Under the pieces are notes generated by a model, which saw only the letters and a program-made list of their open reading frames with translations, had not been told where the DNA came from and made no database searches. From Epibacterium ulvae (lineage in GTDB: Bacteria; Pseudomonadota; Alphaproteobacteria; Rhodobacterales; Rhodobacteraceae), in the NCBI RefSeq assembly GCF_018678075.1, contig NZ_JAHHIR010000003.1, positions 1-41,431 of the forward strand: DNA of 41,431 nucleotides, read 5' to 3'. Positions 755 through 22,287 of the stretch are shown piece after piece (the first letter of the stretch is position 1; the number at the start of each line of letters is the position of its first letter). Made by a program: the position numbers and the translations under genes.

Positions 755-1660
755 TTATGCTGGCTCTTTCAACAGATGCTTTGCGGAAGCACTTAGGCCC
801 GCAAGAGTTAGCGCGGTTGCGTCGTGGCAATCCGTGGTAGCATCTGCGAGGGAAAGCGCCTGCGCGTAGGTACACGTCAGATCTGCGGCACCAATCAAAT
901 GCACTGTCTGCCCTGACCACATCGTGCGGGTTGCCGCAAACTCAAACCCGAGCAGCAATCCGGAAAGTCGGGCTCTTGCTTTGGCAGCGTTTGCGCTTGT
1001 GAGAAGCGTACCTGCGCGGATCTCGAATAGCTCGGTAGCTACACTTTCGGGGGTCGCGAGCGCCCCAACCACGGCGGTCTCGAACGATGCTTGGTCCCAG
1101 CCATCTGCGCCCATTGAGTGCCGCAAGATCGATTGATCAGAAATCAGTCCAAAAATCTCACCCGTCATCGCGCTTACAAAATGCTGAATCCGACCACCTG
1201 ACACTTCCACCCATTTCGCGTGCGTACCCGGCAGGCAGAGCACACCTGTAAACTCGGCATGGGACTGTAAAAACCCTGCAATCTGTGTCTCTTCGCCCCT
1301 CATAACGTTCGGGGGGGTGGTTTGCTTAACGCCCGGCAGGATGAAAACTTCGCGCGCTGTCCCCGGTGCCTTAACGGCCCTCAAATGCAATTGCTCTAGG
1401 GCTCCGTCGATTGGAACATAGGGGGCCTCGATCCAGCCTTGTGCCGCGCCAACCATACCGCTCGCTACCACCGGAACATGCGCGGGGACCTCCATCTGCA
1501 CCAAGGCCTGCTCCAGTACGGACGAGAACTGGTCAGACGTCAGAGTGTTCATCCCCTGCGCCCCTTTATGACAGGCGCATACTGCTCCGTCTGCCCCGAT
1601 GGCCCAAGCCCGAAAACTGGATGTTCCCCAGTCAACAGCAACAAATTCAATCTGTGTCAT
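755..1660 (-). CDS. dgoK: 2-dehydro-3-deoxygalactonokinase (DgoK family)
   Basis: This 301-residue protein matches the DgoK kinase family over its full length. It has an N-terminal phosphate-binding VDWGTSSFRAW segment, a central LPGTHAKWV stretch and the following SAMTGEIF region. The family phosphorylates 2-keto-3-deoxygalactonate (KDGal) with ATP in the cytoplasm, giving 6-phospho-KDGal for cleavage to pyruvate and glyceraldehyde 3-phosphate. It is the last gene of a nine-gene operon, 4 bases after the second enolase-superfamily gene. The 6-phospho-KDGal aldolase (dgoA) that commonly partners this kinase is not downstream; the sequence runs into mobile-element scars instead. The kinase fixes the island's end product as KDGal, which is the best single clue to the substrate. 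Confidence 0.9.
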   Translation of the reverse strand: MTQIEFVAVDWGTSSFRAWAIGADGAVCACHKGAQGMNTLTSDQFSSVLEQALVQMEVPAHVPVVASGMVGAAQGWIEAPYVPIDGALEQLHLRAVKAPGTAREVFILPGVKQTTPPNVMRGEETQIAGFLQSHAEFTGVLCLPGTHAKWVEVSGGRIQHFVSAMTGEIFGLISDQSILRHSMGADGWDQASFETAVVGALATPESVATELFEIRAGTLLTSANAAKARARLSGLLLGFEFAATRTMWSGQTVHLIGAADLTCTYAQALSLADATTDCHDATALTLAGLSASAKHLLKEPA

Positions 1661-1664
1661 GGCG

Positions 1665-2828
1665 CTAGCCTATCTCGTAGTGGGCAATGAAATCTCGATC
1701 CGGCTCGACGCCTAGTCCTGGTCCGGTGGGAATGCTCACGCGGCCCTTGCTGCGGGCGACCTGCCCTTGAATATCAAGTGGATCGGCCAACAGGTTGTCG
1801 CGGAAACGGTTCTCGGTCGTGTCAAATTCCAGCATCGGCTCCCACGGGTGCAGACCGCCAGGCATGGGCGGCATGGCGGCTAGCAGTTGCAGATTGGTGG
1901 CCACGGCGATGGCGCTCCCCCAGACGTGGTTGATCACAGGTGTGAAATGCGCGTGGCAGAGAGCCAGAACGCGCAGGTATTCGGTGATTCCACCCAAGGC
2001 GCAGACTTCGGGTTGGGCGATGTCCAGCCCGCGGTTCTCAAGGATCGAACGCCAGCCCCAGCGGGCGAATTCGGCCTCGCCGCCCGAAATGTTTACCTTC
2101 AGTCCCGCGCGCAGTTCCCGGTAGCCGTCATGGTCTTCGGGCGCGACGGGTTCCTCGAACCAATAAGCGCCGAGTTCCTCCAGCGCGCGACCAACATAGA
2201 AGGCATCTGACGTCGTGTAGCAGTGGTTGGCATCGACCATGAAACGGGCCTCGCCCACCCCCTTGGCCACCGCTTCGCACAAGCGCACATCTTCGCGTGG
2301 GCCAAGGCCTGTTTTCATTTTAGCCGCGCCAAATCCCATGCCAATGATTGCCGCTGCTTCATCAGTAAACCTGGCCACGTGATCCTCGACGCTTTCGCGT
2401 TTGAGCATCATGCCATAACCATAGGCTGCAACATCTGTGCGATGCGCACCGCCGATCAGCTTGTGAATGGGCAGACCAACGACTTTGCCGGCGATATCCC
2501 ACAGCGCAATGTCCACGCCGGACAGAGACTGGATCGGCATCCCCTTCTGTCCATGATCGCGCAGCAAATTATACACTTTGTGCCAGATCACATCGCGGTC
2601 CAGCGGGTCCATACCAATGACCATCGGTGCGATTACCCGTTCGACGATGGTCTTGTTCGCGATTGCCACGTTACCCGGGCCAAAACATTCACCCCAACCC
2701 GTGATCCCTTCGTCGGTGGTGACCTCAACTAGATGCGCGGTGCGTTTTGCGTAATATTGCTGCGAGTACCCCAGTTCCTCAGGCATATCACATTGCAGGA
2801 CATGGGATTTTATTTCGATGATTTTCAT
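1665..2828 (-). CDS. Enolase-superfamily sugar-acid cycloisomerase/dehydratase
   Basis: This is a 387-residue mandelate racemase/muconate-lactonizing-type enzyme. Visible catalytic elements are Lys170-x-Lys172 (AAKMKTG), metal ligands Asp199 (MVDAN), Glu225 or Glu226 (WFEEP) and Glu251 (SGGEAEF), and His301 (NHVWG). From memory of the family it resembles galactarolactone cycloisomerase-type enzymes (GWGECFGP, LRDHGQKG and LSGVDIALWD blocks). Placed directly between an aldehyde dehydrogenase (ATGA overlap) and dgoK, its likeliest job is to turn an anhydrogalactonate or related sugar acid into KDGal, as 3,6-anhydrogalactonate cycloisomerases do. Sequence alone does not fix the substrate; a galactonate- or fuconate-type dehydratase remains possible. 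Confidence 0.8.
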   Translation of the reverse strand: MKIIEIKSHVLQCDMPEELGYSQQYYAKRTAHLVEVTTDEGITGWGECFGPGNVAIANKTIVERVIAPMVIGMDPLDRDVIWHKVYNLLRDHGQKGMPIQSLSGVDIALWDIAGKVVGLPIHKLIGGAHRTDVAAYGYGMMLKRESVEDHVARFTDEAAAIIGMGFGAAKMKTGLGPREDVRLCEAVAKGVGEARFMVDANHCYTTSDAFYVGRALEELGAYWFEEPVAPEDHDGYRELRAGLKVNISGGEAEFARWGWRSILENRGLDIAQPEVCALGGITEYLRVLALCHAHFTPVINHVWGSAIAVATNLQLLAAMPPMPGGLHPWEPMLEFDTTENRFRDNLLADPLDIQGQVARSKGRVSIPTGPGLGVEPDRDFIAHYEIG

Positions 2829-4282
2829 GCTGTTTCCAGGGCTCGGGTGATGCGTTTGACGACGAGATAATCGTGAAGCGCGAGCGTCGAGCAGTCATGC
2901 CCAATCCCAGATTGGCCGATACCACCGTGAGGCAGATCAATGTCGTACTTCACACCATTGATCTGGATTTCGCCGTAACGGAGTTTCCCCGCCCAGCGTT
3001 CGGCCTTTGCGAGGTCGCGCGTGAAAACGTAGGCAGTCAAACCGCCGTCATCGCAATCATTTGCCATGCGTTCGAGTTCGCTAGTCTCATCAAATGGCAC
3101 AATGCTGACAATGGGGCCAAAGGTTTCCTGCTGATATACACCCATCGTCTCGGTAACACCTCCAAGGACCGTCGGTGCCAGAAAATGACCTTTGTTTTGG
3201 CCGTCGGGGCGGGTTCCTCCCGCAAGGATGGTAGCACCATATAGTGCGGCATCGTCGATTAGACACCTGAGCCGGGACCATGCGCGGCCGTCAATGACAG
3301 GGCCCGTCGTGATATTGGCAGTTTTGTCCCAGCCAACAGTGGCAGATTCAGCCCGCGCGACGGCTTTTTCGGTAAAGGCATCATGAACATCCCTATGCAC
3401 AAAGACGCGGTTTGGAGAGACACATACCTGGCCGGCGTTCGAAAATTTAACACCGCAGACGATATCGGCCGCCAAGTCCAAATCAGCATCCGGAAATACA
3501 AGCACAGGGGCATTGCCGCCCAGTTCCATAGAGTAGCGTTTTATCGTGCTCGCACCGGTGCGCATGATGTGTTTGCCGGTTTTGGTCGAACCAATCAACG
3601 TGATAAGCGCAGGGATTGGCGACGCCGACAAATGATCAGCCACATCATAGCCGTCGGTACAGAGGATCTGAACGACACCGTTAGGCATTCCGATTTTATG
3701 ACATAACTCGCCAACCGCATAAGCCGAGATCGGTGTTTGCTCGGAGGGGCGGATAATGATCGGACAGCCCGCCGCCATTGCCGGACCAATTTTGAAGGCT
3801 AGGTTCAGAAGCGGAAAATTCCACGCGAGGAACGCGAGCGCCACCCCCGCTGGCTCGTAGACCATACGATGTGTATGAGTCCCTGCACGGTCGGGCAGTC
3901 CCATGTCCTGAAACCGTGCGATTTCCTCGGCATAGAAAGCGAGGCTATTCTTCAGGCTATCAAAATCCTCTTGTGTGCTCGCCCACGGCTTGCCCAACTC
4001 GTAGTGAATGCAGTCGCGCAGATGCTCTTCGTTCTCGATCACTGCGTCGCGCAGTTTGCGCATCCACTCCTGCCGTTCCGAGATGGACGTTTGCGCCCAA
4101 GTCGGAAAAGCGGCCCTTGCTGCCTCTAGTGCGCGATCCGCATCGGCGATCCCTGCGGTGGGCACGGTGGCGACCAATTCTTCTGTAGCGGGATTGAAAA
4201 CGTCAATGCTTGCCATACCACCGGTCAGCTCACCGGCGATATACATCTGTTTCTCGAATTTGGGCATTGGGTTGTCTTTCAT
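2825..4282 (-). CDS. NAD(P)-dependent aldehyde dehydrogenase
   Basis: A complete 485-residue ALDH-superfamily enzyme with Asn155 (LAWNFPLL), general base Glu253 (MELGGNAP) and nucleophile Cys287 (NAGQVCVSP). It is closest in feel to succinate-semialdehyde/glycolaldehyde-type ALDHs. Its stop overlaps the start of the next enolase-superfamily gene (ATGA), and it starts 3 bases after the ABC ATPase. ALDH, cycloisomerase and KDGal kinase in this order is the pathway described for 3,6-anhydrogalactose (oxidation to anhydrogalactonate, cycloisomerisation to KDGal, phosphorylation). I infer that role. Another sugar aldehyde is possible. An internal Met at residue 6 is an alternative start. Confidence 0.85.
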   Translation of the reverse strand: MKDNPMPKFEKQMYIAGELTGGMASIDVFNPATEELVATVPTAGIADADRALEAARAAFPTWAQTSISERQEWMRKLRDAVIENEEHLRDCIHYELGKPWASTQEDFDSLKNSLAFYAEEIARFQDMGLPDRAGTHTHRMVYEPAGVALAFLAWNFPLLNLAFKIGPAMAAGCPIIIRPSEQTPISAYAVGELCHKIGMPNGVVQILCTDGYDVADHLSASPIPALITLIGSTKTGKHIMRTGASTIKRYSMELGGNAPVLVFPDADLDLAADIVCGVKFSNAGQVCVSPNRVFVHRDVHDAFTEKAVARAESATVGWDKTANITTGPVIDGRAWSRLRCLIDDAALYGATILAGGTRPDGQNKGHFLAPTVLGGVTETMGVYQQETFGPIVSIVPFDETSELERMANDCDDGGLTAYVFTRDLAKAERWAGKLRYGEIQINGVKYDIDLPHGGIGQSGIGHDCSTLALHDYLVVKRITRALETA

Positions 4283-4285
4283 TTC

Positions 4286-5251
4286 TTAAATGTCTCCAGC
4301 GTAGTGACAAAGCACATCTGCGCCGTCGATTTTCCGTGTCGTTGGAACGGTCTCGCGGCACATGTCCGTCGCGTGCGGACAACGAGGTGAAAAGCGGCAG
4401 CCTTTCGAAGCGACGATTGGGATGGCTTCCCCTTTCAACCTGCGTGGCTTGCGGGCGCGCGGATCGGGGATCGGTACCGCCTCCAAAAGTGCACGAGTGT
4501 AGGGATGCTTGGGATTTTGAAAGAGATCAGTCGTTGTAGACAGCTCCACTATCTGACCAAGATACATGACCGCGATCCGGTCGCAGAAATGTTCAACGAC
4601 TGCTAGATCGTGCGCAACGAAGATGTAGGTTAACGCATATTGCTCCTGCAAATCCTTCAGTAGGTTAAGTGTCTGGGCCTGAATTGAAACATCCAGCGCA
4701 GAGACGGCTTCGTCTGCGATGATCACTTCCGGGTTGGTCGCAAGTGCGCGTGCAATGCCGAGTCGCTGACGCTGCCCACCCGAAAAGGCGTTTGGGTAGC
4801 GGTGGAGGAATTCAGGGCGAAGGCCCACTTTTGTAAGCAATTCGGAGACACGATCAGCGAGTGCAGCCCCTTTTAAACCCTCCGCCTTCGAGATGCTCTG
4901 ACCGATGAGGTCTATCACACGTAGTCGCGGATTGAGTGACGATTGCGGGTCTTGAAAAACCATTCGAATGGCCTGCCAGATCTGGCGCAGTGTCTTTTGG
5001 TCGGCCCCAACAAGGTCCGTACCATGGAATTTTACGGAACCAGAAGACGGTTTGATGATCTGCATCATACAGCGCCCGAGCGTCGTCTTGCCTGACCCAC
5101 TTTCTCCCACAATGCCGAAACTTTCACCTCGCATGACATCAAAAGAAATATTATCCACGGCACGCACCACGTCATTCGGTTTAGAAAAAAATCCACCACC
5201 GATGTTGAAGTGTTTGTTTAGTCCCCGGACCTCGATCACCGGCTCAGTCAT
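4286..5251 (-). CDS. ABC importer ATPase, oligopeptide/oligosaccharide type (DppF/OppF-like)
   Basis: This cytoplasmic ATPase of 321 residues has Walker A GESGSGKTT, signature FSGGQRQRLG, Walker B VIIADEAVSALD and the H-loop AHDLAV. It ends with the family's C-terminal [12 protein letters not shown] segment and a cysteine-rich CRFSPRC...C tail. The frame is open upstream to 5440, but the family begins at MTEPVIEV, so I place the start at 5251, overlapping the preceding ATPase stop by 8 bases. It pairs with the upstream ATPase to power the two permeases. The family is named for peptides but many members import oligosaccharides, which fits this sugar-acid operon. Confidence 0.9.
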   Translation of the reverse strand: MTEPVIEVRGLNKHFNIGGGFFSKPNDVVRAVDNISFDVMRGESFGIVGESGSGKTTLGRCMMQIIKPSSGSVKFHGTDLVGADQKTLRQIWQAIRMVFQDPQSSLNPRLRVIDLIGQSISKAEGLKGAALADRVSELLTKVGLRPEFLHRYPNAFSGGQRQRLGIARALATNPEVIIADEAVSALDVSIQAQTLNLLKDLQEQYALTYIFVAHDLAVVEHFCDRIAVMYLGQIVELSTTTDLFQNPKHPYTRALLEAVPIPDPRARKPRRLKGEAIPIVASKGCRFSPRCPHATDMCRETVPTTRKIDGADVLCHYAGDI

Positions 5252-6266
5252 GGGTTTTCTCCAAGTGTAGGAAACAGGCGGCCTGGCTGTCACCGATATC
5301 CACCATCGCCGGTTCATTGACGTCGCAAATACCCGGCATGAAATGGTCACAGCGCGTACGGAAGGTACAACCAGTGGGCCGCGCAAGCGGATGCGGCACC
5401 ATTCCCCGGATGGCAGGCAGGCGGTCGCGCTTTTCACCACCTATTTTCGGAACGGATTCCAAAAGAGCGCGAGTATAGGGGTGCTGTGGACGCTCAAAGA
5501 TCGAATAGACATCGCCTTTCTCGACCACTTTTCCCATGTACATGACGGCGACGTCTTCTGCGACCTGAGCGACGACCCCGAGGTCATGCGTAATGAGCAT
5601 GACCCCCATCTCGAATTCTTCCTTTAGCTCAGCAATTAGGTCAAGAATCTGTGCCTGCGTTGTAACATCAAGCGCCGTCGTCGGCTCGTCGGCGATCAAA
5701 AGGCGGGGTTGGCAAGACAACGCCATAGCAATCATCGCCCGTTGACGCATGCCTCCGGAAAGCTCGAAGGGATAGGACTCGAACCGCTCCCGTGGGCGCG
5801 GAATTCCTACCTTGTCGAGCATCTCAATCGCAATTTCTTTTGCTTCTTTCCGCGACACGTCGCGGTGCAGCGAAATAGTCTCAGCTATCTGTTGGCCGAT
5901 CTTCTGAATCGGCCCAAGCGAAGACATCGGCTCTTGAAAGATCATGGCGATATCCTGCCCGCGGATCTGCCGGAGTTGGCGCGAACCGTGACGTACCTTG
6001 GCCAAGTCTACAATAGAGCCCTCGGCGCTCCGATATTGGATCGAGCCTTCAACAATTCGTCCAGGCGCGTCCACAATCCGCATGATCGAGCGGGCCATGA
6101 TCGACTTGCCACACCCCGACTCGCCCAGAACACACAGTGTTCGGTTAGGGTAAATGTCGAGATCCACGCCCTCGACCGCCTTAACGACGCCGTCGTCCGT
6201 GTGGAAGTGGGTTTTGAGCCCGCGCATCTCGACAAGAGGTTCAGTGGGCATTGGGGTCAGCGGCAT
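5244..6266 (-). CDS. ABC importer ATPase, oligopeptide/oligosaccharide type (DppD/OppD-like)
   Basis: ATPase with Walker A GESGCGKS, signature LSGGMRQRA, Walker [14 protein letters not shown]-loop THDLGV and the C-terminal [12 protein letters not shown] and CTFRTRC segments. Start choice is uncertain. An AGGAG lies right before an ATG at 6278 (no spacing), 9 bases before a GTG at 6269 and 12 bases before an ATG at 6266; a further ATG is at 6251. I use 6266. In every case it overlaps the permease gene, indicating translational coupling. It forms the ATPase pair with the gene at 4286-5251. Confidence 0.88.
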
Positions 6267-7389
6267 CACGAAGTCCATCTCCTAGAAAGTTGAGGGCAAG
6301 GACCGCCATGACGATCATCGTACCGGGCGCGATCAACAGCCATGGTGCCTGAATGATCGTGCGGATGTTCTGCGCCTCCTTGAGTAAAGTGCCCCAAGAC
6401 ACTGTGGGCGGTTGCAGTCCGATTCCAAGGAAAGAAAGAGAGGTCTCCGCAAGGATCATAAGCGGCACGGCCAACGTCAGTGAAGCGATGATGTGCGACG
6501 AAAAAGACGGTACCATGTGGCGACGAATTACTTCCCAATCGGTCAAACCGTCCAACCGAGCAGCGGTGACAAAATCCTCTTTACGCAAGGATAGAAACTT
6601 GCCCCTGACTTCGCGTGCCAAAGAGGTCCAACCAATCATCGAGACTATTACGGTCACCACAAAATAAGTCCGTAGCGGTGGCCACCCCAGCGGAATAGCC
6701 GCGGCAAGCCCCATCCAGAGCGGGATAGTCGGAATTGAGCGGATGAACTCGATCAGGCGCTGGATAATGTTGTCGATCCAGCCACCATAGTAACCAGAAA
6801 TGCCCCCAAGCGAAATGCCAATGACCATTGACAACGCGACACCAACTAACCCGATAGACATCGATACACGTGTACCCATGACAATTCGGCTGTAAATGTC
6901 TCGCCCTAGTCGGTCAGCTCCGAAGAAATAGACCCGGTCGCGAGGGTTTTTGGCGCCGAATAGGTGCGTGTTCAACGGGATCAGACCAAGCAACTTGTAG
7001 TCATAGCCTTCGACGAAGAACCCCAGCGGGATTATCTTGTCGGGATCTTCGACAAATGTACGCCGACGCTCCTCTTCATTCAATTCCAGCTTCAAACCTC
7101 TGGCATGCAAAAGGAACTGACTCGTTCCGCTTTCGTCATTTGTGAACAACTGCACTGACATCGGGGGGGCGAATGGCGCACGGCGATTTGTTTCATTGAT
7201 GTCTTGCGTGGTCAAAAACTCTCCAAAGAGCGCCATTAGGTAGATGAAGCCGACAAACCAGAGACTGAAATAGGCTAACCGGTGGCGCTTGAACTTACGC
7301 CATATTAGCGACCAAGGCCCTAGCAGTTCAGGGACCAAGTTAGTGTCTTTGCTATTGTCAGAGACGGGAGAGGTATCAGTTAAGGTCAT
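6241..7389 (-). CDS. ABC importer permease (DppC/OppC-like)
   Basis: A 382-residue inner-membrane permease. It has an N-terminal cytoplasmic stretch, a first membrane segment (residues about 38-56), a long periplasmic loop, then the five-helix core starting near GADRLGRDIYSR. The EAA loop is visible as TAARLDGLTDWEVIRRHMVP. The periplasmic loop of about 100 residues is longer than in peptide permeases and resembles transporters with large ligands. It overlaps the start of the ATPase gene and shares an ATGA with the upstream permease. Confidence 0.88.
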   Translation of the reverse strand: MTLTDTSPVSDNSKDTNLVPELLGPWSLIWRKFKRHRLAYFSLWFVGFIYLMALFGEFLTTQDINETNRRAPFAPPMSVQLFTNDESGTSQFLLHARGLKLELNEEERRRTFVEDPDKIIPLGFFVEGYDYKLLGLIPLNTHLFGAKNPRDRVYFFGADRLGRDIYSRIVMGTRVSMSIGLVGVALSMVIGISLGGISGYYGGWIDNIIQRLIEFIRSIPTIPLWMGLAAAIPLGWPPLRTYFVVTVIVSMIGWTSLAREVRGKFLSLRKEDFVTAARLDGLTDWEVIRRHMVPSFSSHIIASLTLAVPLMILAETSLSFLGIGLQPPTVSWGTLLKEAQNIRTIIQAPWLLIAPGTMIVMAVLALNFLGDGLRDAADPNAH

Positions 7390-8372
7390 TGATAGCGGAT
7401 CCTTGGGTCAATCCAGGCCAGAAGCAGATCTGAGATGAGCGTACCCAGCACCGTCAGGAGACTAACGATCAGGATCAATGACCCTGCGAGGTACATGTCC
7501 TGCACCAGAAGTGCGCGCAGAAGCATCGGTCCTGTCGTGGGCAGGTTCATCACAACGGCCACGATGATCTCTCCAGAGACCAGCGTCGGGAGTATCCAGC
7601 CGATAGTGGAAAGAAAGGGGTTTAGCGCGACCCGAACCGGATAACGCATGAGAAGTTGAAATTCCGACATGCCCTTGGCACGGGCGGTCACGACGTAAGG
7701 TCGGTAGAGTTCATCCAGCAAGTTCGCCCGCATAATCCGGATCAATGCCGCCGCACCAGACGTGCCGACGACCACGATGGGCATCCAGATGTGCTTGAAC
7801 AGATCGACGTATTTCTCCCAAGTCCATGGAGCGTCAAGGTATTCTGGACTCACAAGCCCGCCGACGGATTGGCCGAAGTACTTGAAAGCCACGTACATCA
7901 TGACAAGCGCCAGCAGGAAATTAGGAACAGCAAGTCCGATAAAGCCAAAGAAGGTCGCGGCATAATCGCCAAAGGAGTATTTGCGGACTGCCGAATAGAT
8001 GCCGATGGGTAGAGCGATCGCCCATATGAATAGCAGCGTCATAAGTGAAATGGCGAAGGTCCAGCCCAGGCGGTCCCAAATCAAGTCGCCGACTGGAAGG
8101 TTCTTTTCAAAGGAAAGGCCAAAGTCACCTTGCATGACAATTCCTGTGATCCATTTCCAGTACTGAACGAAAAAGGGCTGACCCAGCCCATATTGCTCGC
8201 GCAGGGCTTCCATCGTTCCACTGTCCAACCCGCCTTGATCCGACAGCTCTGCCGCAAGGGTGTCCAGATAATCACCAGGCGGGAGCTGAATGATCAGAAA
8301 GGTCACGATTGAAACGAGTATGACCGTCGGGATCATGTAAAAGATGCGTCTAAGAAGAAAAGCGAACATCAC
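7386..8372 (-). CDS. ABC importer permease (DppB/OppB-like)
   Basis: A 328-residue permease starting FAFLLRRIFYMIPTV, the family's usual first helix, followed by the QYGLGQPFFVQYWKW periplasmic segment and a membrane core. The EAA loop reads TARAKGMSEFQLLMRYPVR. It ends IDPRIRYQ as in DppB proteins. It overlaps the next permease by 4 bases and starts 65 bases after the binding-protein gene. With the neighbouring genes it makes a complete importer. Confidence 0.9.
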   Translation of the reverse strand: MMFAFLLRRIFYMIPTVILVSIVTFLIIQLPPGDYLDTLAAELSDQGGLDSGTMEALREQYGLGQPFFVQYWKWITGIVMQGDFGLSFEKNLPVGDLIWDRLGWTFAISLMTLLFIWAIALPIGIYSAVRKYSFGDYAATFFGFIGLAVPNFLLALVMMYVAFKYFGQSVGGLVSPEYLDAPWTWEKYVDLFKHIWMPIVVVGTSGAAALIRIMRANLLDELYRPYVVTARAKGMSEFQLLMRYPVRVALNPFLSTIGWILPTLVSGEIIVAVVMNLPTTGPMLLRALLVQDMYLAGSLILIVSLLTVLGTLISDLLLAWIDPRIRYQ

Positions 8373-11613: not shown

Positions 11614-11669
11614 CGTCGCACTCCTTGACACGAATCTTGCCTACCACTATTGATAACACAATTTCAAAA

Positions 11670-14064: not shown

Positions 14065-14758
14065 TTCGACCACGGGACCGCGTTTGATTGATACGCAGTT
14101 GATCCACCACATGGCGGCCCGCGTCCTGAATGTGCCGGTTCAGCGTCGACACGGCCAAGTTTACATCCTGCGCCTTGATCGAATCAATCAGCTCACGGTG
14201 CTCCTGTATGATCGCTTCCTGTCGCCCAATGGCAATGGGAACGCGTGTGCTGATCGAGCCGAGAATCTCGCGATGCTGTTTCCAGACGCCAAAGGCCACG
14301 CGATTGTAATGGCGTTCGTACATATACTCGTGGAACTGGTGGTTCAGCTCCGTATGGCGCGCCTTGTTCGAGAAATTGATCGCTTCGATTTCCGACTGGA
14401 TACGCTCCAACTCTGCGATGTCTTCCGCGCTAGCAGTCTCCACGAAAAGTTTCAGCAGATATGGTTCAAGCTGGTAACCGACCTCGGCCACGTCGCGAAC
14501 GAACTCCATGTCGATAGGGCGCACCCGCGCGCCTTGATTGGGTGTAAACAGAACCAGCCCTTCCCCCCGCAATTGTTGCAGCGCCTCGCGTATCGGGTTG
14601 GTCGACGTGTTGTGCTGCTTAGCAAGCTCCGAGATCTTCAGCCGCGCATTCGCTTCAAGCCTGCCTGACAGGATATCATGCCGGATCGCATCATAGATCG
14701 ATGTCTGGGATACATCGGCTGCGTCAGAGGCAAGTGCAATGGGTCCGGCAGTGCTCAT
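14057..14758 (-). CDS. GntR-family regulator, FCD subfamily
   Basis: N-terminal winged helix (residues about 15-75) with the recognition region KISELAKQHNTSTNPIREAL, then an all-helical FCD ligand-binding domain of about 150 residues containing HTELNHQFHEYMY and the late HRELIDSIKAQD histidine. An upstream in-frame TTG at 14773 is possible; the ATG at 14758 seems more likely and gives 233 residues. FCD regulators usually sense sugar acids or other carboxylates and repress divergent genes. It is divergent from the lactonase gene across a gap holding the repeated TCGTACATTATT word, so it is the natural candidate to control all three promoters of the island. It overlaps the formylglycine-generating enzyme gene by 8 bases. 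Confidence 0.9.
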   Translation of the reverse strand: MSTAGPIALASDAADVSQTSIYDAIRHDILSGRLEANARLKISELAKQHNTSTNPIREALQQLRGEGLVLFTPNQGARVRPIDMEFVRDVAEVGYQLEPYLLKLFVETASAEDIAELERIQSEIEAINFSNKARHTELNHQFHEYMYERHYNRVAFGVWKQHREILGSISTRVPIAIGRQEAIIQEHRELIDSIKAQDVNLAVSTLNRHIQDAGRHVVDQLRINQTRSRGRNG

Positions 14759-14825
14759 TTCATAATCGTCCAAAGGTTCTGGCGTTTAGAGGCTGGCCAC
14801 TCTGTCGCGCATGATTTATAATTTT

Positions 14826-14854: not shown

Positions 14855-15712
14855 ATGAACTTACCGATTAGCGCAGATCCCGCCAAGGCCGGATGCGGTG
14901 AAGGACTGCTTTGGGATGAACACCGCGGCCTTGTTTGGTGGGTCGACATCGCAAAAGAGGCGCTTCACTCCTACGACCCGGCAACACAGCACGCCAAGCG
15001 GGTCGCGATGCCATATCTTATCAGTGCGCTCGCGCTTGATCAGAACGGGGATTTGCTGATCGCCACCAAATACGGTCTGGGCCGTGTCGACCCAGAGAAC
15101 GGCACCATAGTGCTGTTACATGATCCGGAGCCAGATGCCGCGGGCAATCGTTTGAATGATATGCTCGCAGGCCCCGATGGTGCGCTTTGGATCGGGACAA
15201 TGTCCGAAGGCGCGAAGGGACCGACCGGCGCACTTTATCGGTATGCGGACGGCCAGCCAAAGACCATGATGACCGGCTGCACAATTTCCAATGGTCTGGC
15301 TTCTAGCCCCGACGGGACACGCCTCTACTTCGTCGACAGTGTGCCGGGTATTCTACATGTCTATGAGGACGACATTTGGCAGGTGTTGCGCCGATTTGAC
15401 ACCAGTACAGGCAAGCCGGACGGACTTACCGTGGATGCCGATGGTACCCTTTGGATCGCAATCTGCGATCGGGGACAAGTCATCGGCATGACACCTGAGG
15501 GGGAGATCACCACGCGGATCGATCTGCCCTGTGAGATCGTGACAAACTGTACGTTTGGCGGAGCGGACCTCAAGACCTTGTTTGTGACAACAGGCACCTT
15601 CAGCATGACTGACCAAGAAAAGGCCGCCAACCCCGCGGCTGGCGGCCTGTTCACTATAGAGATGGGGGTGGCAGGTCTGCCGCCCCACCGTGCCAACTGG
15701 CCCGAGGCCTAA
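14855..15712 (+). CDS. SMP-30/gluconolactonase-family lactonase
   Basis: A 285-residue six-bladed beta-propeller lactonase with the family's metal ligands visible: Glu16 (GCGEGLLWD), Asn146 (ISNGLASSPDG) and Asp189 (KPDGLTVDADG). The substrate-site segment NRLND is at residues 98-102. Such enzymes hydrolyse aldonolactones to aldonic acids in the cytoplasm. It has a good GAAGG ribosome site. Divergent from gntR, it would link a sugar dehydrogenase (the SDR at 16836-17600) to the galactonate-dehydratase-like enzyme. A galactono-lactone is the inferred substrate; gluconolactone or arabinonolactone are alternatives. Confidence 0.88.
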   Translation: MNLPISADPAKAGCGEGLLWDEHRGLVWWVDIAKEALHSYDPATQHAKRVAMPYLISALALDQNGDLLIATKYGLGRVDPENGTIVLLHDPEPDAAGNRLNDMLAGPDGALWIGTMSEGAKGPTGALYRYADGQPKTMMTGCTISNGLASSPDGTRLYFVDSVPGILHVYEDDIWQVLRRFDTSTGKPDGLTVDADGTLWIAICDRGQVIGMTPEGEITTRIDLPCEIVTNCTFGGADLKTLFVTTGTFSMTDQEKAANPAAGGLFTIEMGVAGLPPHRANWPEA

Positions 15713-15721: not shown

Positions 15722-15750
15722 CTTGCCGGTGGGGAGGATGCCCCGGCAAG
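15722..15750. terminator. Bidirectional terminator between convergent genes
   Basis: CTTGCCGG (15722-15729) pairs with CCGGCAAG (15743-15750) in the 45-base gap between the convergent lactonase and malK-like genes. T-runs are absent on both sides, so its strength is uncertain. Confidence 0.55.
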
Positions 15751-15757
15751 ACACCCC

Positions 15758-16843
15758 TCAGCGAATGCGCACGCCGCTATCGTCATCAAAAACCAATGCA
15801 GCGGAGGGATCGAAAGAGACTGTCAGACGGCCACCTTTGGATGGCCGTGCAGCCCCCCGAAGTTCAACGATCACGGGGTGCGCCTCGCCTTCGAAAGACG
15901 AATAGGCGTATGACACACCGCCGAGGTTCTCAATCACATCGATGTCGAGAGAGGCCTGCATCGCACCATCTGCCGCGAAGTGTTCCGGACGCAGGCCTAC
16001 TTTTACCTGCTGCCCACGTACGAGCGCTTGCGTGACCTGAACAGGGAGCGGCGCATCCCCTAAACGCGGTACTGAAACCATAGTTTGTCCATTGTCCGTA
16101 GACATAACAGTCGCATCAAAGAAATTCATACGGGGCGAACCGATAAATCCAGCGACGAACAGATTGTCGGGGTCGTCATAGAGTTTGGCCGGTGATCCGG
16201 CTTGCTCAATACGACCGTCGCGTAGAACGACGATCTTGTCAGCCATGGTCATGGCCTCCACCTGATCGTGCGTGACGTAGATCATTGTCGCGCCCAACTG
16301 CTTGTGCAGCTTGGCAATCTCCACACGCATCTCAACCCGCAATTCGGCATCGAGGTTCGAAAGTGGTTCGTCAAACAGGAACACATCCGGTTGCCGTACG
16401 ATGGCACGGCCAATGGCGACGCGTTGGCGTTGCCCCCCCGACAGGGCCTTGGGCTTGCGATCCATGTAGTCGGTCAACTTCAGAATACGGGCAGCTTCAT
16501 CGACCTTTTTTGCGATCTCGGCCTTCGGGGTCTTTCCGATCTTGAGTCCAAAGCTCATATTCTCGCGCACGGTCATGTGGGGATACAAAGCGTAGGTTTG
16601 GAACACCATGGACACGCCGCGCTTGGCCGGATCCATGTGCGTCACATCCCGCCCGCCGATTGTCATGCGTCCATCCGAGGTTTCCTCAAGGCCCGCAATC
16701 ATGCGAAGAAGCGTTGATTTCCCACAGCCCGAAGGGCCAACAAAGACGCAGAAATCGCCATCCTCGACCTCAAGGTCCACGCCGTGGACCACTTGCACGT
16801 TGCCGTATTTCTTAACGGCCTGCTTCAGCGACAATTCAGCCAT
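15758..16843 (-). CDS. Sugar ABC importer ATPase (MalK/UgpC-like)
   Basis: ATPase of 361 residues from the ATG at 16843, which overlaps the SDR stop (ATGGCTGA) and has GGAAGGGAA upstream; the frame is open to 16864. Walker A is GPSGCGKST, the signature [11 protein letters not shown], and Walker [15 protein letters not shown]-terminal regulatory OB-fold domain contains KVGLRPEH. This is the standard CUT1-type energiser for carbohydrate import and the last gene of the second transporter operon. It serves the MalF/MalG-like permeases upstream. Confidence 0.92.
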
Positions 16844-17600
16844 TGCGCTTCCCTTCCAAGTCAAAAATATCCAAAAGCGATGACATGCCGCGATCTGCGA
16901 GCAGGTCGGAACCGTTCAGCGCAGCCCCCGCGTCTGACAGTAAAAACACCGCCAGAGCGCCGATTTCATCCACGGTCGTGACCTCTGCGTCCGGCGTCCA
17001 CGACCGAAAGCGTTCGGCCAATTCCGGCGTCTTCATCGCCTCCTCAACGATCTCGGTCCGGGTCATTGCCGGACTTATGGCATTCACGCGCAAGCCCTTG
17101 GCGCCCAGCGACCACGCCATGGCGCGGGTCATCGCCACGATCGCGGCCTTAGTTGCGGCGTAACCTTCATGGCCGGGATTGGTGGCGCGCGCGTGTACAG
17201 ACGCGATATTGACGATCGCGCCCCTCCCGGCCTCCGCCATGATCCGTCCTGCCGCTTGGCATCCCACGAGAACGGAACGCTGGTTGACCGTCCAGAGTGT
17301 TTCCATCTGATCACGGGTCATCTCGAGAAACGGCACCTTGATGGTGACGCCGGCGTTGTTGACCATGCCATCCAGCTTGCCCATGCGCTTATGCGACGTC
17401 GTAATTGCCTCCTCAAAGGCGTCCAGATCCGTCACGTCGACCTGCGCAAAATCTGCGCTTATCTCGGTCATCTTAGCGCGGCCGTCGTCTTTATCAAAGC
17501 CTGTCACCTGCGCCCCCGCCTTGGCACAGGCGCGGGCGATGCCCAGCCCGATGCCCGCCGCGGCGCCGGTGACGATGATATGTTTCCCTGTCAGGTTCAT
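16836..17600 (-). CDS. Short-chain dehydrogenase/reductase
   Basis: A classical 254-residue SDR: dinucleotide-binding TGAAAGIG (11-18), NNAG (81-84), and the catalytic Ser134, Tyr147 and Lys151 all present. An acidic residue (FDKDD) after the second strand points to NAD rather than NADP. It is embedded in the sugar-importer operon (ATGA overlap with the permease before it, 8-base overlap with the ATPase after it), so it most likely oxidises the imported sugar. With the lactonase and the galactonate-dehydratase-like enzyme it would form a De Ley-Doudoroff-type oxidation of galactose or a related hexose. Fucose or other sugars are possible. Confidence 0.87.
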
Positions 17601-18478
17601 TTCACCGCTCCTGCCGTGGCACCGGCCATAATCTTGCGCTGGAAGACCGCGAACATCAGCAACAACGGGAGAGAGCCCAACACCGCCGCAGGGAACAGTT
17701 TGGTCGGGTCGATCCCGGTGTTGCCGACGAATTTATAGACTGCGATCATTACCGTCAGCTTATCTTTATCCGTCAGCAAGAGCAGCGGATAGATAAAGTC
17801 GTTCCACACCATAATCATCACGAACAGCGACAGTGTGGCTGTGACAGGGGCCAGAAGCGGCCGGATCACATGCCAGAAAATCTGCCAATTGTTGCAGTTA
17901 TCAAGCCTTGCAGCCTCTTCCAACTCCATCGGGATGGCCGCAATAAAGCTGGTGTAAAAGAATACTGCGAGCGGCAGCTTTAGTGCGGCAAATGCAAGAA
18001 CAATGCCAAGATAGCTGTCCAGCAAACCAATATCGCGGAAGATAACGTAGATCGGCGTGATGGTGACAAAATTTGGCGTCGCCAGCCCCAACGCCATGAT
18101 CATAACGATCACACGGCTGGTGCGGTTCTGCAGGCGGGCCAACGGATAGGCCGCCATGGCACCTGCAAAGACGACCACAACAATCACGGAAAGCGTGATG
18201 CCCAGCGAGTTCAGAACCGAGCGGACATAACCCATCGAGGACAGCGCCGCCATGTAGTTGCCCCAGTACAGGCTGTCCGGCAGGCCCAACGGGTCTTGCG
18301 CGATCTCGGTCGAGGTTTTGAACGACATCATGACCATATAGATCAGCGGGAGCAGCATGATCCCGACCAATGCCAGCACGATGCCATGCACGAGGATGGA
18401 CTTTGCGCGACGCGTGATGAAATCCCAGTCAGGGCCCGTATGCGCGCGGGCCGTAGTTTGTGTCTCGGTCAGGCTCAT
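17597..18478 (-). CDS. Sugar ABC importer permease (MalG-like)
   Basis: A 293-residue CUT1-family permease with six predicted membrane segments. The EAA loop reads LEEAARLDNCNNWQIFWHVI and is followed by PLLAPV, typical of MalG-type proteins. The start overlaps the MalF-like stop by one base (TAATG), and the end overlaps the SDR start by four. It forms the translocation pore with the preceding gene product. Confidence 0.92.
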   Translation of the reverse strand: MSLTETQTTARAHTGPDWDFITRRAKSILVHGIVLALVGIMLLPLIYMVMMSFKTSTEIAQDPLGLPDSLYWGNYMAALSSMGYVRSVLNSLGITLSVIVVVVFAGAMAAYPLARLQNRTSRVIVMIMALGLATPNFVTITPIYVIFRDIGLLDSYLGIVLAFAALKLPLAVFFYTSFIAAIPMELEEAARLDNCNNWQIFWHVIRPLLAPVTATLSLFVMIMVWNDFIYPLLLLTDKDKLTVMIAVYKFVGNTGIDPTKLFPAAVLGSLPLLLMFAVFQRKIMAGATAGAVK

Positions 18479-19344
18479 TACGCTTGCTCCCGGTCACGCA
18501 GGACCTTGTTCTGTAAAAAGGCCACGGCCAGCACGATCACTAGCATGACAATCGACAGCGCACTGGCGAAGCCGAATTTATATTGGCCAAAGAGGTTGTC
18601 AATAATGTCGATGGACAAAAGGCGTGTGGCCCCGTCCGGCCCGCCCTTGGTCAGGATGAAGGGCAGCTCAAAGGTTTTTAGCGTTCCGATAGTGGTCAGC
18701 ATAACCGACACGGTGATCGACGGGCCAAGCAACGGCAGTTCAAGATAGCGGAACCGTTGCCAGCTTGAGGCCCCTTCCAACCGTCCGGCTTCGTTGATCT
18801 CTTCGGGAATACCTGCAAACCCCGCCAGAAAGATCGCGCAGGTAAAGCCGGTGAACATCCAGATTTGCGCAAAGGCCACGGAATAGAGCGCAATGGAAGG
18901 ATCACCCAGCCAGTTTTGCTCCCATGCGCCAAGCCCCAGATCGCGTAGTGCGACGTTAATGCCGCCATTCAGGGGTGAATAAAGGAACTGCCAGATATAA
19001 CCGACCACCACAAAAGACATCATGGCAGGCGTGTACAGTGCAGCCCGGCTAAAATTGCGAATTAGCGGCAGGCGGTGCAGCATGGCCGCAAAAAACAGCC
19101 CCGTCACGGTCAGCGCAGATACGACAATCACGGTGTACCACAGGGTCAACCAGATTTCGTTCAGGTAACGATCGCGGGCAACGATGCGCTCGTAGTTCCG
19201 CCAGCCGATATCGTTTGCCTCACCGATGCCTTTGTAGTTGGTCAGGCTCATATCGAAAGTCAGGATGATCGGGTGAATAAAAAACAGTCCGATCACAAGC
19301 AATGCTGGGAATGTGAAAAGATACAAGGATCGTCTGGCGCGCAT
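18478..19344 (-). CDS. Sugar ABC importer permease (MalF-like)
   Basis: A 288-residue CUT1-family permease. The first helix follows RARRSLYLFTFPALLV. The EAA loop is EINEAGRLEGASSWQRFRYLE, here cited by its EAGRLEGAS core. It has a GGGGAGGAC ribosome site. It is 60 bases after the binding-protein gene, with a perfect hairpin in the gap. Confidence 0.92.
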   Translation of the reverse strand: MRARRSLYLFTFPALLVIGLFFIHPIILTFDMSLTNYKGIGEANDIGWRNYERIVARDRYLNEIWLTLWYTVIVVSALTVTGLFFAAMLHRLPLIRNFSRAALYTPAMMSFVVVGYIWQFLYSPLNGGINVALRDLGLGAWEQNWLGDPSIALYSVAFAQIWMFTGFTCAIFLAGFAGIPEEINEAGRLEGASSWQRFRYLELPLLGPSITVSVMLTTIGTLKTFELPFILTKGGPDGATRLLSIDIIDNLFGQYKFGFASALSIVMLVIVLAVAFLQNKVLRDREQA

Positions 19345-19373
19345 GATGTCCTCCCCTTCGTTGTAATCGTGGT

Positions 19374-19396
19374 GTCCGGCGCACCATGCGCCGGAC
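19374..19396 (-). promoter_or_regulatory. Perfect intercistronic hairpin after sugar-binding protein
   Basis: GTCCGGCGCA (19374-19383) and TGCGCCGGAC (19387-19396) form a 10-bp GC-rich stem with a 3-base loop. No T-run follows. It lies between the binding-protein and MalF-like genes, the usual place for a hairpin that stabilises the binding-protein mRNA or partially terminates. Confidence 0.65.
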
Positions 19397-19404
19397 GCGG
19401 CTGC

Positions 19405-20628
19405 TTACAAGTTGTCTTCTACGACATCGTCCCAACGCTGAAGCGTGTCGTCATTGTCACGGTCAATGTTCAGCAAGAAGCCCGTGATGCTGTCTTCCCA
19501 CTCCGACTGAAGCGGTTTGGGGAACTCAAGCGTCGAGAACGGCCACAGGATCAGGCTGCCCTGCTCGCGCGCTTCGGTGTAGGGCGCTGCGAGATCGGGC
19601 ATGGTGAGAGCCCCCCCCACGAAAGGGCTGTACGCGCCTTCGGCTTCAAGGAAAACGTTCAGGTTCTCCTCGACCGCGAAGAAGTCGACCCACTTACGCG
19701 CCGCTTCAGGGTTTGCAGCGTCACGCGGGATCGCCCAGCCGGGGCCGACAAGATCAAGCGCAAGACCGTGCTCGGTGAAGGCAGACGGCATCGGCGCGAA
19801 CTGATAGTTCAGACCCTCGACGCCCGAAAAGCCGCCGATGTTCCATGCGCCCTGCGGCAGGATCGCCACGTTACCCGAGCGGAATTCCTGCGGTGCAGTC
19901 GCCCAAGGATCAAGGCCCGCCTGTAAATCCGGATCGAAACACTCTGCCGCGACAAGATCACGGACACTGTCCAAGGACGCATTGAAGTTTTCGTCCCCGA
20001 CGAATTGACGTTCGCTGCTGCCATATTCCGCAGGAGAAGCACCATTAAGGTCGATGCCGTTTGCGCCAACGTAGAGCATGGCAGAGAAACTACCTGCGAA
20101 AATCATCGGCGCGATACCCTTGGCCGACAATGCCTGACAGGTCGCCTTGAGCTCATCCAACGTCACCGGCGCCTTGTCGATACCGACCTGAGCTAGAAGA
20201 TCCATGTTGACGAAATTGCCCATACCGATGACTTCGAGCGGATAAACGAGGATCTCGCCATCCTTAGTCATCACATCGCGCACGTCCGGCACCATTTGAT
20301 CATACCAGGCGCTATCCGTTCCAAGATCGGACAAAAACCCGGCGCCCCCCCATAGATCAACCAGAGAACTGTCGACCATCGTCACGTCCGGTGGGTTGCC
20401 ACCTTGCAAACGCGGTGGGATGACTTTGTCTACATCCTTGCGCGCGACGTATGTCAGCTCGACATCGATGTCGGGATTTGCAGATTCAAACTTCTCGATT
20501 AACTCAGGTAAGCCAGCAGGCTCGGCCTCGTTCCCCTTCCATGCAACGACGTCCAAAATTGTCTGTGCGCTGGCAGTTGAAGCCAGAACGATTGCGGTCG
20601 CTGTGACCGTAGGTAAAACTCGAATCAT
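19405..20628 (-). CDS. Periplasmic sugar-binding protein, family 1
   Basis: A 407-residue carbohydrate binding protein of the MalE/UgpB class. A signal peptide is visible (residues 1-21, cleavage after ASTASA), followed by the lobe landmarks IEKFESANPDIDVEL, NPPDVTMVD and GNVAILPQGAWN. A GGAG site precedes the ATG. It is the first gene of the operon, and two copies of the repeated GTACATT word lie just upstream. It delivers a sugar, probably mono- or disaccharide sized, to the MalF/MalG-like pore. Ligand unknown. Confidence 0.92.
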   Translation of the reverse strand: MIRVLPTVTATAIVLASTASAQTILDVVAWKGNEAEPAGLPELIEKFESANPDIDVELTYVARKDVDKVIPPRLQGGNPPDVTMVDSSLVDLWGGAGFLSDLGTDSAWYDQMVPDVRDVMTKDGEILVYPLEVIGMGNFVNMDLLAQVGIDKAPVTLDELKATCQALSAKGIAPMIFAGSFSAMLYVGANGIDLNGASPAEYGSSERQFVGDENFNASLDSVRDLVAAECFDPDLQAGLDPWATAPQEFRSGNVAILPQGAWNIGGFSGVEGLNYQFAPMPSAFTEHGLALDLVGPGWAIPRDAANPEAARKWVDFFAVEENLNVFLEAEGAYSPFVGGALTMPDLAAPYTEAREQGSLILWPFSTLEFPKPLQSEWEDSITGFLLNIDRDNDDTLQRWDDVVEDNL

Positions 20629-20657
20629 TTTAAGATGCTCCTCTCTTCCCGCTAAAA

Positions 20658-20688
20658 TCGTACATTATTTATTTTCGATTGTACATTG
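20658..20688. promoter_or_regulatory. Two putative GntR operators, divergent promoter 3
   Basis: TCGTACATTATT (20658-20669) is identical to the sites at 11672 and 14826. A second, weaker copy, TTGTACATTG, is at 20679-20688, 21 bases along (two helical turns), which would suit cooperative binding. The gap separates the sugar importer operon (minus) from sulfatase 2 (plus). Confidence 0.6.
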
Positions 20689-20757
20689 CCAACTTTCTTC
20701 AATAGATGATGGGCAGTCCAAACGCTCATTCCTTTATCCGCTCAAGAGGTACTCAAA

Positions 20758-22287
20758 ATGGCTAAAGCACCTAATGTTCTATTAATCTCGACAGACCAGC
20801 AACGGGGCGACTGTATCGGTGTCGAAGGGCGCGGCATCCGGACGCCCAACATGGACCGGATCGCCGCCAATGGCGTGCGGTTTTCAAAGTGCATCACGCC
20901 GCACCCGATGTGTCAGGCGGCGCGGGCCTCGATCCTGACCGGCAAGCTGCCCTATAGTCATGGTGTGCGGGACAATGGCCGCGACATGGAACTGCCTCTG
21001 GCCGATCTGGGCTTGGGCGGTGTGTTTACCCAAGCGGGCTATGCCACGCATTTCATTGGCAAGGCGCACTTGTCGTCGCAACAGACTTTCGAGCCAACAG
21101 GCCGACCTGAATGCTACAAGAGCGCGGGCGATTTCGGGCCGGACTGGCGTGGCAGCTACATGGGGTTCGAGGATGTCCAGCTGATGTTGCGTCCGCACCA
21201 CCACACCCAATGGTATCCTGCCCCTGAGGCTTTGCACTATGAATACTGGCTGGATCAGGGCGGCAAGGGAGACGAGCGCTGGACCCGCGCTAAGGATCGC
21301 CTTGCGCCTGATACCGCACATTTCCAGACATGGCGATCTGGGCTCGAAGCGCCGTGGCATTCCTCGCCATGGATCGGCGACCGCACCGTAGATATGATCC
21401 GGAACAAAGGCGACAAGCCGCTGATGGCTTGGGTGTCCTTCCCCGATCCGCACCCGCCGTTCCTGTCCCCGCAGCCGTGGTGCGACATGTATGATCGTGA
21501 TGAAGTAGTAGTCGCTAAACATCCGCAGCTTGATTTGGAAAACCGCCCGTGGTGGCACCGGGAATTCGTCGAGGATCGTGCCAAACCAATCAAACAGGGC
21601 TCGGAGCACAATGCAGGCGGTATCGACTGGGGCCAAAAAGGCGATCTGAACGAAGCCGCGCTGCGCGACCTAACACGTATCTATTTCGGGATGATTTCAT
21701 CCGTCGACTACGAAATCGGACGTATCTTACAGGCGCTCGAAGAAGCAGACGAGTTAGACAACACCTATATTATCTTCACCAGCGATCACGGCGAATGGCT
21801 GGGCGATCACGGGCTGCTTCTCAAGGGGCCGATGCTGTACGACGGGCTGCTGCGCGTGCCCTGTCTGATCCAGGGGCCGGGGGTGCCGCAAGGCCGCGTG
21901 ATCGATACCCCTGTCGGCACCGTGGATGTACTGGCAACCGCCGCTGATTTATCAGGCGTGGCCGCACCTGAAACGCACGGTCAGTCGTGGCGTGGACTAT
22001 GGGACGGCACCCAAAGCCGCGACTTCGCGCTCGCCGAATACGAGGTCGATGCGATCCGCTCGGCCGTAGATATGGATCTGATGACTGTCCGAAGCGACCG
22101 CTACCGCATGTCGATGGACCTCAAAACCAATACGGGCGAGTTGTATGATTTGCACGACGATCCGGACGAAATGGTCAACCGTTTCGACGATCCGGCCTAC
22201 GAAGCAATCCGACGCGAGCATCACGATATGATCCGCTCCCGACCTGACGACATGATCCCAGTATCGCCGCGTGTAGGGTGGCATTAA
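20758..22287 (+). CDS. Cytoplasmic type I sulfatase (CQAAR motif)
   Basis: A 509-residue S1-family sulfatase whose formylglycine motif is C52-Q-A-A-R56, the less common C-x-A-x-R form. Other landmarks are Asp13 (STDQQRGD), Lys102-x-His104 (GKAHLSS), Asp343-His344 (TSDHGEWLGDHG) and Lys356 (LLKGP). No signal peptide, so it is cytoplasmic. A GAGG ribosome site lies 8 bases before the ATG. It is divergent from the sugar-importer operon and belongs to another subfamily than sulfatase 1, so the two probably remove sulfate from different positions or sugars. The Cys-to-formylglycine step would rely on the enzyme encoded at 13123-14064. Confidence 0.92.
   Translation: MAKAPNVLLISTDQQRGDCIGVEGRGIRTPNMDRIAANGVRFSKCITPHPMCQAARASILTGKLPYSHGVRDNGRDMELPLADLGLGGVFTQAGYATHFIGKAHLSSQQTFEPTGRPECYKSAGDFGPDWRGSYMGFEDVQLMLRPHHHTQWYPAPEALHYEYWLDQGGKGDERWTRAKDRLAPDTAHFQTWRSGLEAPWHSSPWIGDRTVDMIRNKGDKPLMAWVSFPDPHPPFLSPQPWCDMYDRDEVVVAKHPQLDLENRPWWHREFVEDRAKPIKQGSEHNAGGIDWGQKGDLNEAALRDLTRIYFGMISSVDYEIGRILQALEEADELDNTYIIFTSDHGEWLGDHGLLLKGPMLYDGLLRVPCLIQGPGVPQGRVIDTPVGTVDVLATAADLSGVAAPETHGQSWRGLWDGTQSRDFALAEYEVDAIRSAVDMDLMTVRSDRYRMSMDLKTNTGELYDLHDDPDEMVNRFDDPAYEAIRREHHDMIRSRPDDMIPVSPRVGWH

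Follow-up and report, generated by a model that had tools for sequence, protein, structure and literature searches.

The core of the carrageenan polysaccharide utilization locus (PUL) consists of dagA, which encodes a glycoside hydrolase of family 127 (GH127), together with dauA, dauB and dauD, and it has been reported for over 30 species (PMC5698469, available part). In Pseudoalteromonas, the genes for 3,6-anhydrogalactose catabolism and for the De Ley-Doudoroff galactose pathway have already been found in one locus (PMC6262041, available part; PMC6923384). Carrageenan loci of this genus were reported without GH127 or GH129. Strain PS47 nonetheless grows on carrageenan, and its cell fractions showed no conclusive anhydrogalactosidase activity (PMC6923384). 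The kappa/iota-carrageenan pathway of P. carrageenovora 9T was described as incomplete, which was attributed to the missing GH127 and GH129 (PMC6262041, available part), and the neocarrabiose-splitting enzyme (beta-neocarrabiosidase) of GH127-less Pseudoalteromonas was still termed unknown in 2025 (PMC12549532, available part). Here we analyzed a stretch of 41,431 nucleotides from the alphaproteobacterium Epibacterium ulvae (NZ_JAHHIR010000003.1; the window), which is one whole contig (C89) of an assembly of 107 contigs and 4.09 Mb, and compared an island of catabolic genes in it (positions 755 to 22,287) with these systems.

We estimate a probability of about 0.75 that the island provides the later steps of a kappa/iota-carrageenan utilization system and is built for uptake by ATP-binding cassette (ABC) importers. 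This reading is based on gene content, homology, gene neighborhood and co-occurrence. Other microbes would release small (neo)carrageenan fragments, and these would enter the cytoplasm through an Opp-type and a MalFGK-type importer. A formylglycine-generating enzyme (FGE) would mature two cytoplasmic sulfatases, of which SUL1 would probably remove the 2-sulfate of the anhydrogalactose unit and SUL2 probably a galactose sulfate, and a GH127 encoded on another contig (C55) could cut the bond between the two sugar units. D-anhydrogalactose would then be oxidized by an aldehyde dehydrogenase (ALDH; DauA) and opened by a cycloisomerase (CYC; DauB) to give 2-keto-3-deoxygalactonate (KDGal). Galactose would likewise be converted to KDGal, by a short-chain dehydrogenase/reductase (SDR), an SMP-30 lactonase and a galactonate-dehydratase-like protein (ENO2). 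KDGal would be phosphorylated by its kinase (DGOK) and then split by an aldolase encoded elsewhere, most likely on contig C96.

Much of this outline had been drawn in an earlier reading made from the letters alone (the sequence-only reading), which had proposed an anhydrogalactose route, a second set of genes converging on KDGal, two sulfatases with their maturase, and two ABC importers. All the named genes were found to be open frames that match their families above the Pfam cut-off, and homology supports both routes.

A probable pathway for 3,6-anhydro-D-galactose

The proposed anhydrogalactose route is encoded by three genes on the minus strand, ALDH (2825..4282), CYC (1665..2828) and DGOK (755..1660; dauC-like; PF05035, 299 bits). 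Among solved structures, ALDH matched 6PNU best, at 585 bits, and the runner-up scored 336 bits. 6PNU is DauA of Pseudoalteromonas PS47, an enzyme with 3,6-anhydro-D-galactose as substrate and NADP+ as cofactor (PMC6923384, available part). In a search of PLSDB plasmids at E 1e-120, ALDH had five matches, from Sulfitobacter (75%), Paracoccus (71%), Roseibium (68%), P. carrageenovora (55%) and Persicobacter (45%).

The carrageenan locus of P. carrageenovora contains, in order, genes for a sulfatase, an MR/MLE protein, SMP-30, a major facilitator superfamily (MFS) transporter, SDR, a hypothetical protein that is aldose-epimerase-like by eye, ALDH, a second MR/MLE protein, DGOK, 2-keto-3-deoxy-6-phosphogalactonate (KDPGal) aldolase and two GntR regulators. 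CYC is 67.8% identical to the cycloisomerase that adjoins the ALDH on the P. carrageenovora plasmid, and ENO2 and ALDH are 57.6% and 55.4% identical to proteins of that locus. Plasmid-borne relatives of CYC outside that group were at most 43% identical (best 40 of 64 records). With the 6PNU score, the identity to the carrageenan-locus enzyme places ALDH with the DauA type of the 3,6-anhydro-D-galactose (dau) pathway. Against solved cycloisomerases, CYC scored 266 bits with the D-type 5OLC and 117 bits with the L-type 5XD7, and on these scores we rejected the agar (3,6-anhydro-L-galactose) route. The DauA-type ALDH, the similarity of CYC to the carrageenan-locus protein and the order of these two scores together indicate that the anhydrosugar is the D form of carrageenan, not the L form of agar. 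Thus, of the two kinds of substrate considered in the sequence-only reading, carrageenan and agar-type galactans, the first was retained and the second was dropped.

The general base, the general acid and three metal ligands described for AtGCI and ZGAL_3156 (PMC5698469) are conserved in CYC, as judged by alignment. Galactarolactone cycloisomerases have these residues as well, so that more is told by the 67.8% identity and by the motif GGExE(F/Y), which is common to CYC and DauB-type proteins; the galactarolactone-type enzymes have GGETWH. A galactarolactone cycloisomerase was considered for CYC and rejected, as two annotated relatives beside kdgD were 43% identical and carry GGETWH instead of GGExE(F/Y). 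In a quick tree, CYC and the P. carrageenovora protein formed a group separate from the galactarolactone-type enzymes (99*); we give this tree little weight because it came from a quick search only and has long branches. The nearest relatives of CYC are in roseobacter-type genomes.

DGOK would provide the kinase of the dau pathway within the window. No match to PF01081, the family of the KDPGal and 2-keto-3-deoxy-6-phosphogluconate (KDPG) aldolases, was found in the window; the genome has two, on C63 and C96, which are the candidates for dauD.

Two observations were made on neighbors of these genes. On three plasmids, from Roseibium, Sulfitobacter and Paracoccus (L111:33090-40892, L112:15445-23245 and L113:15842-23677), a GMC oxidoreductase gene and a small gene directly precede ALDH and CYC. 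In two records the small gene is assigned to the gluconate 2-dehydrogenase subunit 3 family, and in Roseibium it is annotated as hypothetical. The sugar could possibly be oxidized in the first step. In a contig of a Pseudooctadecabacter metagenome-assembled genome (L007:1292-4290), CYC is 97% identical to that of the window and is flanked by an ALDH and a DGOK of 74% and 65% identity, a mismatch possibly due to gene-by-gene exchange or to a chimeric contig.

Sulfatases, importers and cell location

SUL1 (11744..13150, plus strand) carries the sulfatase motif CTPAR, and its best solved relative, together with two variants of the same enzyme, was the exo-2S carrageenan sulfatase 6PT4 (220 bits across residues 4-420; next other entry, 133 bits). 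6PT4 was assigned from its complex structure as an exo-DA2S carrageenan sulfatase (PMC6923384), and the enzyme has been placed in S1_81 (PMC10958521, available part). We propose that SUL1 is an exo-2S anhydrogalactose sulfatase. SUL2 (20758..22287, plus strand), a proposed galactose-sulfate exo-sulfatase, is not close to any solved structure (best score, 143 bits). Its motif, CQAAR, is common to three of the four relatives of at least 64% identity outside its own genome; the fourth, from Roseibium, has CQPAR. The FGE-type maturase (13123..14112, minus strand; PF03781, 219 bits) lies next to SUL1.

The Opp-type importer is encoded on the minus strand (4286..8372) by two ATPases (4286-5440, whose true start is probably further downstream, and 5244-6278) and two permeases (6241-7389 and 7386-8372), with a family-5 solute-binding protein (SBP5; 8438..10375, minus strand; PF00496, 207 bits). 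The second importer, also on the minus strand, comprises a MalK/UgpC-type ATPase (15758..16864), two permeases (17597-18478 and 18478-19344, together 17597..19344) and a family-1 sugar-binding protein (SBP1; 19405..20628).

By eye, SUL1, SUL2 and the C55 GH127 start at or near the catalytic domain and have no signal peptide, and the maturase also has none. Two P. carrageenovora sulfatases and one Flammeovirga GH127 have an apparent signal peptide at their start. Together with the ABC importers, this points to processing in the cytoplasm, and to cytoplasmic desulfation as had been proposed from the letters. SBP5 has 645 residues, which for an Opp-type binding protein suggests a cargo larger than a monosaccharide. 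The Opp importer, ENO2 and SUL2 occur together on a Roseibium aggregatum plasmid. A Jannaschia plasmid carries the importer and a relative of ENO2, with no sulfatase in the stretch shown.

The proposed galactose branch

The second route comprises ENO2 (10402..11631, minus strand), SDR (16836..17600, minus strand) and the SMP-30 lactonase (14855..15712, plus strand; PF08450, 227 bits; 7PLB, 149 bits). The ENO2 end of 11613 given in the sequence-only reading would be an alternative start of the same frame. A galactose locus on C96 contains genes for GH42, GH36, SMP-30, a KDPG-type aldolase, DGOK, SDR, an IlvD/EDD dehydratase and an aldose epimerase. The presence of this second De Ley-Doudoroff set, with its own dehydratase and aldolase, suggests that the set in the window may be dedicated to carrageenan fragments.

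GH127 and other glycoside hydrolases

No glycoside hydrolase and no TonB receptor were found by the Pfam scan of the window, which covered 40 frames, namely 39 of the 59 frames of at least 150 amino acids and one of 149; frames overlapping scanned genes, RadA and the remainder of the 59 lay outside it. The sequence-only reading, which had noted neither gene, thus agrees with the scanned frames; for glycoside hydrolases it does not extend to the genome, which has one match to GH127, on C55. The neighbors of this gene include a SUL1 paralogue (60%), a second ALDH (67%), an HpcH/HpaI aldolase, another enolase-superfamily gene and a sugar ABC importer. A CYC copy on C55 (L090:890-1757) is broken into two frames, reaches about residue 293 and ends about 890 bases from the contig end; the ALDH beside it is an open frame. 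With regard to the combination of dagA (GH127) with dauA and dauB, this genome has, outside the window, a GH127 with a second dauA-like gene and a broken dauB-like copy, and the GH127 is a candidate for dagA by homology.

The C55 GH127 shares 40% identity with each of the GH127s on a Flammeovirga kamogawensis plasmid and with one from Persicobacter, and 32-34% with those of Rhizobium and Devosia. The Flammeovirga locus has two GH127s, SusCD, GH2, two sulfatases and DauA-D-like genes. GH16 had two matches in the genome, both on C38. An endo-carrageenase role was rejected for the stronger one, which is laminarinase-like with RTX repeats; the weaker one scored 27.8 bits.

The shortage of glycoside hydrolases raises the possibility that the cell imports just free or sulfated D-anhydrogalactose and galactose, and that the system cuts no glycosidic bond. 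Two further searches, of 27 genomes that carry ALDH (described below), are consistent with this: 24 of them have no GH127 at E 1e-90, and a GH42-annotated P. carrageenovora protein, which we take to be its GH167, matched none of the 27 in a search without a positive control. Against this stand the GH127 gene that the own genome has close to its further copies of these enzymes, and the suggested size of the Opp cargo. We consider a scavenger of monosaccharides alone improbable.

Distribution of the gene set

Among the 80 best of 450 CYC loci, 27 have an ALDH of at least 61% identity and seven a SUL1 relative of at least 61%. In an Epibacterium ulvae locus (L011), a stretch of 21 kb carries almost the complete set, lacking the Opp importer and the maturase. 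A Yoonia tamlensis locus (L013) has much of it; in the available stretch DGOK, the maturase, the Opp importer and a close SUL2 are missing.

We also searched 198 genomes of the family, one per genus and including the window's own, for ALDH (E 1e-180), ENO2 and SUL1 (both E 1e-100). ALDH was found in four, ENO2 in three and SUL1 in one, counting the own genome each time. A set of 27 ALDH-bearing genomes was assembled from the window's own genome, three family genomes and 23 of the 27 loci with ALDH (L007, L033, L038 and L040 were left out; the three family genomes may overlap with others). ENO2 was present in 18 of these 27 genomes vs one of 194 sampled family genomes without ALDH, a comparison of unlike samples, as the 27 were chosen for ALDH and the 198 as one per genus. 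The ENO2 copy is at least 68% identical in 17 of the 18 and 54% identical in the other (G200), and the matched stretch has an internal stop in four (G199, G200, G202 and G206). Within the family sample alone, with the own genome excluded, ENO2 was found in one of three genomes with ALDH vs one of 194 without (Fisher, P 0.03). GH127 (E 1e-90) was found in three of the 27, all three ENO2-positive, so that 15 of the 18 ENO2 genomes are without it.

Evidence against the carrageenan assignment, and alternative readings

Several observations weigh against the reading as a carrageenan pathway. CYC is closer overall to galactarolactone-type cycloisomerases (43%) than to the DauB-type proteins of two Bacteroidetes (35-36%). 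Its family has two neighborhoods, one with ALDH, often accompanied by a GMC oxidoreductase, a small-subunit-3-like gene and a ribose-type ABC importer, and one without ALDH and, by eye, with genes of tripartite ATP-independent periplasmic (TRAP) transporters. TRAP-like gene families were found in 28, 26 and 22 of the 80 CYC loci and in none of the 24 loci with the ALDH cluster. The own genome also has the second kind, on C24 (L107:6326-10443), where a full-length CYC copy (78%) lies with TRAP-like genes, again by eye, and a partial DGOK. SUL1 is only about 32% identical to a P. carrageenovora sulfatase, and its occurrence in one of the 198 family genomes (the own) and seven of the 80 CYC loci indicates that the sulfatases are no fixed part of the ALDH/CYC set. 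For the C55 GH127, a protein from soil Rufibacter (38.7%) is nearly level with those of Flammeovirga, and the best solved relatives are named beta-L-arabinofuranosidases. In the galactose branch, SDR and the SMP-30 lactonase are just about 30% identical to their carrageenan-locus counterparts, and C96 holds another De Ley-Doudoroff locus. ENO2 scored 246 bits with PRK14017, below the cut-off of 311 for the galactonate dehydratase equivalog, and is 59-60% identical to Rhizobium and Aureimonas proteins vs 58% to the carrageenan-locus one. In annotation, the stretches around these relatives have no carrageenan genes, and the equal closeness speaks for an ordinary sugar-acid dehydratase.

The observations on CYC mean that its substrate may be other or broader, and the TRAP-linked neighborhood may be a mark of free-acid uptake. 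In an alternative reading, the island would handle another sulfated or acidic sugar, CYC would act on a different acid in the way of its TRAP-linked relatives, and the likeness of the island to carrageenan loci would be by descent only. ALDH, CYC and SUL1 each separately indicate carrageenan, and GH127 was found with second copies of all three, so we regard this as very improbable indeed.

A further alternative concerns how the glycosidic bond would be broken. In neocarrabiose, the anhydrogalactose is attached to O3 of galactose. This is the position from which the leaving group departs in aldonate dehydratases, and the DauB cycloisomerase likewise breaks a C3-O bond. If the galactose were first oxidized to galactonate, an enolase-superfamily dehydratase would have anhydrogalactose as its leaving group. 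Cleavage could then proceed without a glycosidase: SDR would oxidize the reducing-end galactose of neocarrabiose, the SMP-30 lactonase would open the lactone, and ENO2 would abstract the C2 proton and beta-eliminate the 3-O-linked anhydrogalactose to yield KDGal and D-anhydrogalactose in a single step. The scarcity of GH127 among ENO2 genomes is consistent with this, as are the separate galactose route with an IlvD/EDD dehydratase on C96, the growth of PS47 without GH127, GH129 or conclusive anhydrogalactosidase activity, and the beta-neocarrabiosidase gap. One P. carrageenovora CRTAC1 protein, which we take to be a beta-propeller candidate of the 2025 paper (the mapping is unconfirmed), matched six of the 27 genomes, the own not among them, and through its C-terminal piece alone. 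On the other side, P. carrageenovora 9T has an ENO2 counterpart, yet its pathway was described as incomplete, the own genome encodes GH127, and the Rhizobium and Aureimonas relatives of ENO2 are as close. No sequence feature distinguishes 3-O-substituted from plain galactonate as the substrate. We therefore view glycosidase-free cleavage as unlikely here, and we hold it just as doubtful that ENO2 with SDR and SMP-30 is the missing neocarrabiose splitter, replacing a glycoside hydrolase in roseobacters and Pseudoalteromonas that lack GH127 and GH129. If it were, the published gap in degraders without GH127 or GH129 would be narrowed to one candidate enzyme, ENO2.

Other genes on the contig

The island also encodes a GntR/FCD regulator (14057..14773, minus strand). 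A transposase fragment with an rve_3 integrase core (67..516, minus strand) lies at the left contig end, and the DGOK operon may be truncated at this point. To the right of position 22,287 are genes for RadA, a Colicin-V-production-type protein, a Hint-domain protein, an amidotransferase/phosphoribosyltransferase, an SDR, SurE, PCMT and a LysM/M23 protein, as well as DUF2199, DUF815 and TatC genes. Two adjoining phage-integrase-family frames lie at the right contig end (37935-39517), and further frames beyond them are integrase-like by eye.

Comparison with known systems

As a carrageenan system of the kind we favor, the island would extend carrageenan catabolism to the alphaproteobacteria in an import-first form, with desulfation and bond cleavage in the cytoplasm. 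With this layout, the cells would feed on fragments set free by primary degraders. Importing first and processing inside the cell looks like a new arrangement, and the back end is known from other seaweed degraders. The sequence-only reading had called the combination, in an alphaproteobacterium with cytoplasmic desulfation, seemingly little described. A locus that joins the anhydrogalactose and the De Ley-Doudoroff genes is already known from Pseudoalteromonas. For alphaproteobacteria and roseobacters, no description of such a set was found among the titles and abstracts listed in searches of open-licence literature.

The Pseudoalteromonas carrageenan PULs (CarPULs) of PS47 and P. carrageenovora resemble the island in their DauA-, DauB- and MR/MLE-type counterparts (55-68%) and in having DGOK, SMP-30, SDR, sulfatases and GntR in one locus. 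They differ in that no GH16, GH42/GH167-type or TonB gene was found in the scanned frames of the window, and no aldolase gene in the window. Uptake in the CarPULs is by TonB and MFS transporters, whereas the island has ABC importers, and two P. carrageenovora sulfatases start with an apparent signal peptide, whereas by eye those of the window do not.

The carrageenan regulon of Zobellia galactanivorans (dauA-D, dagA and cgs; PMC5698469) has the same four-step D-anhydrogalactose route and, like this genome, a GH127. Here the GH127 is on another contig and has no visible signal peptide, no SusCD-type import was seen in the window, and CYC is just 35-36% identical to DauB-type proteins of two other Bacteroidetes. 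The De Ley-Doudoroff galactose pathway is matched by SDR, the SMP-30 lactonase, the MR/MLE dehydratase-like protein and DGOK, but on C96 the genome carries a separate set, which includes an IlvD/EDD dehydratase and an aldolase. The 3,6-anhydro-L-galactose pathway of agar degraders shares the logic of an ALDH followed by an enolase-superfamily cycloisomerase (PMC5698469, available part), but its L-type cycloisomerase lies far behind the D-type enzyme as a relative of CYC (117 vs 266 bits).

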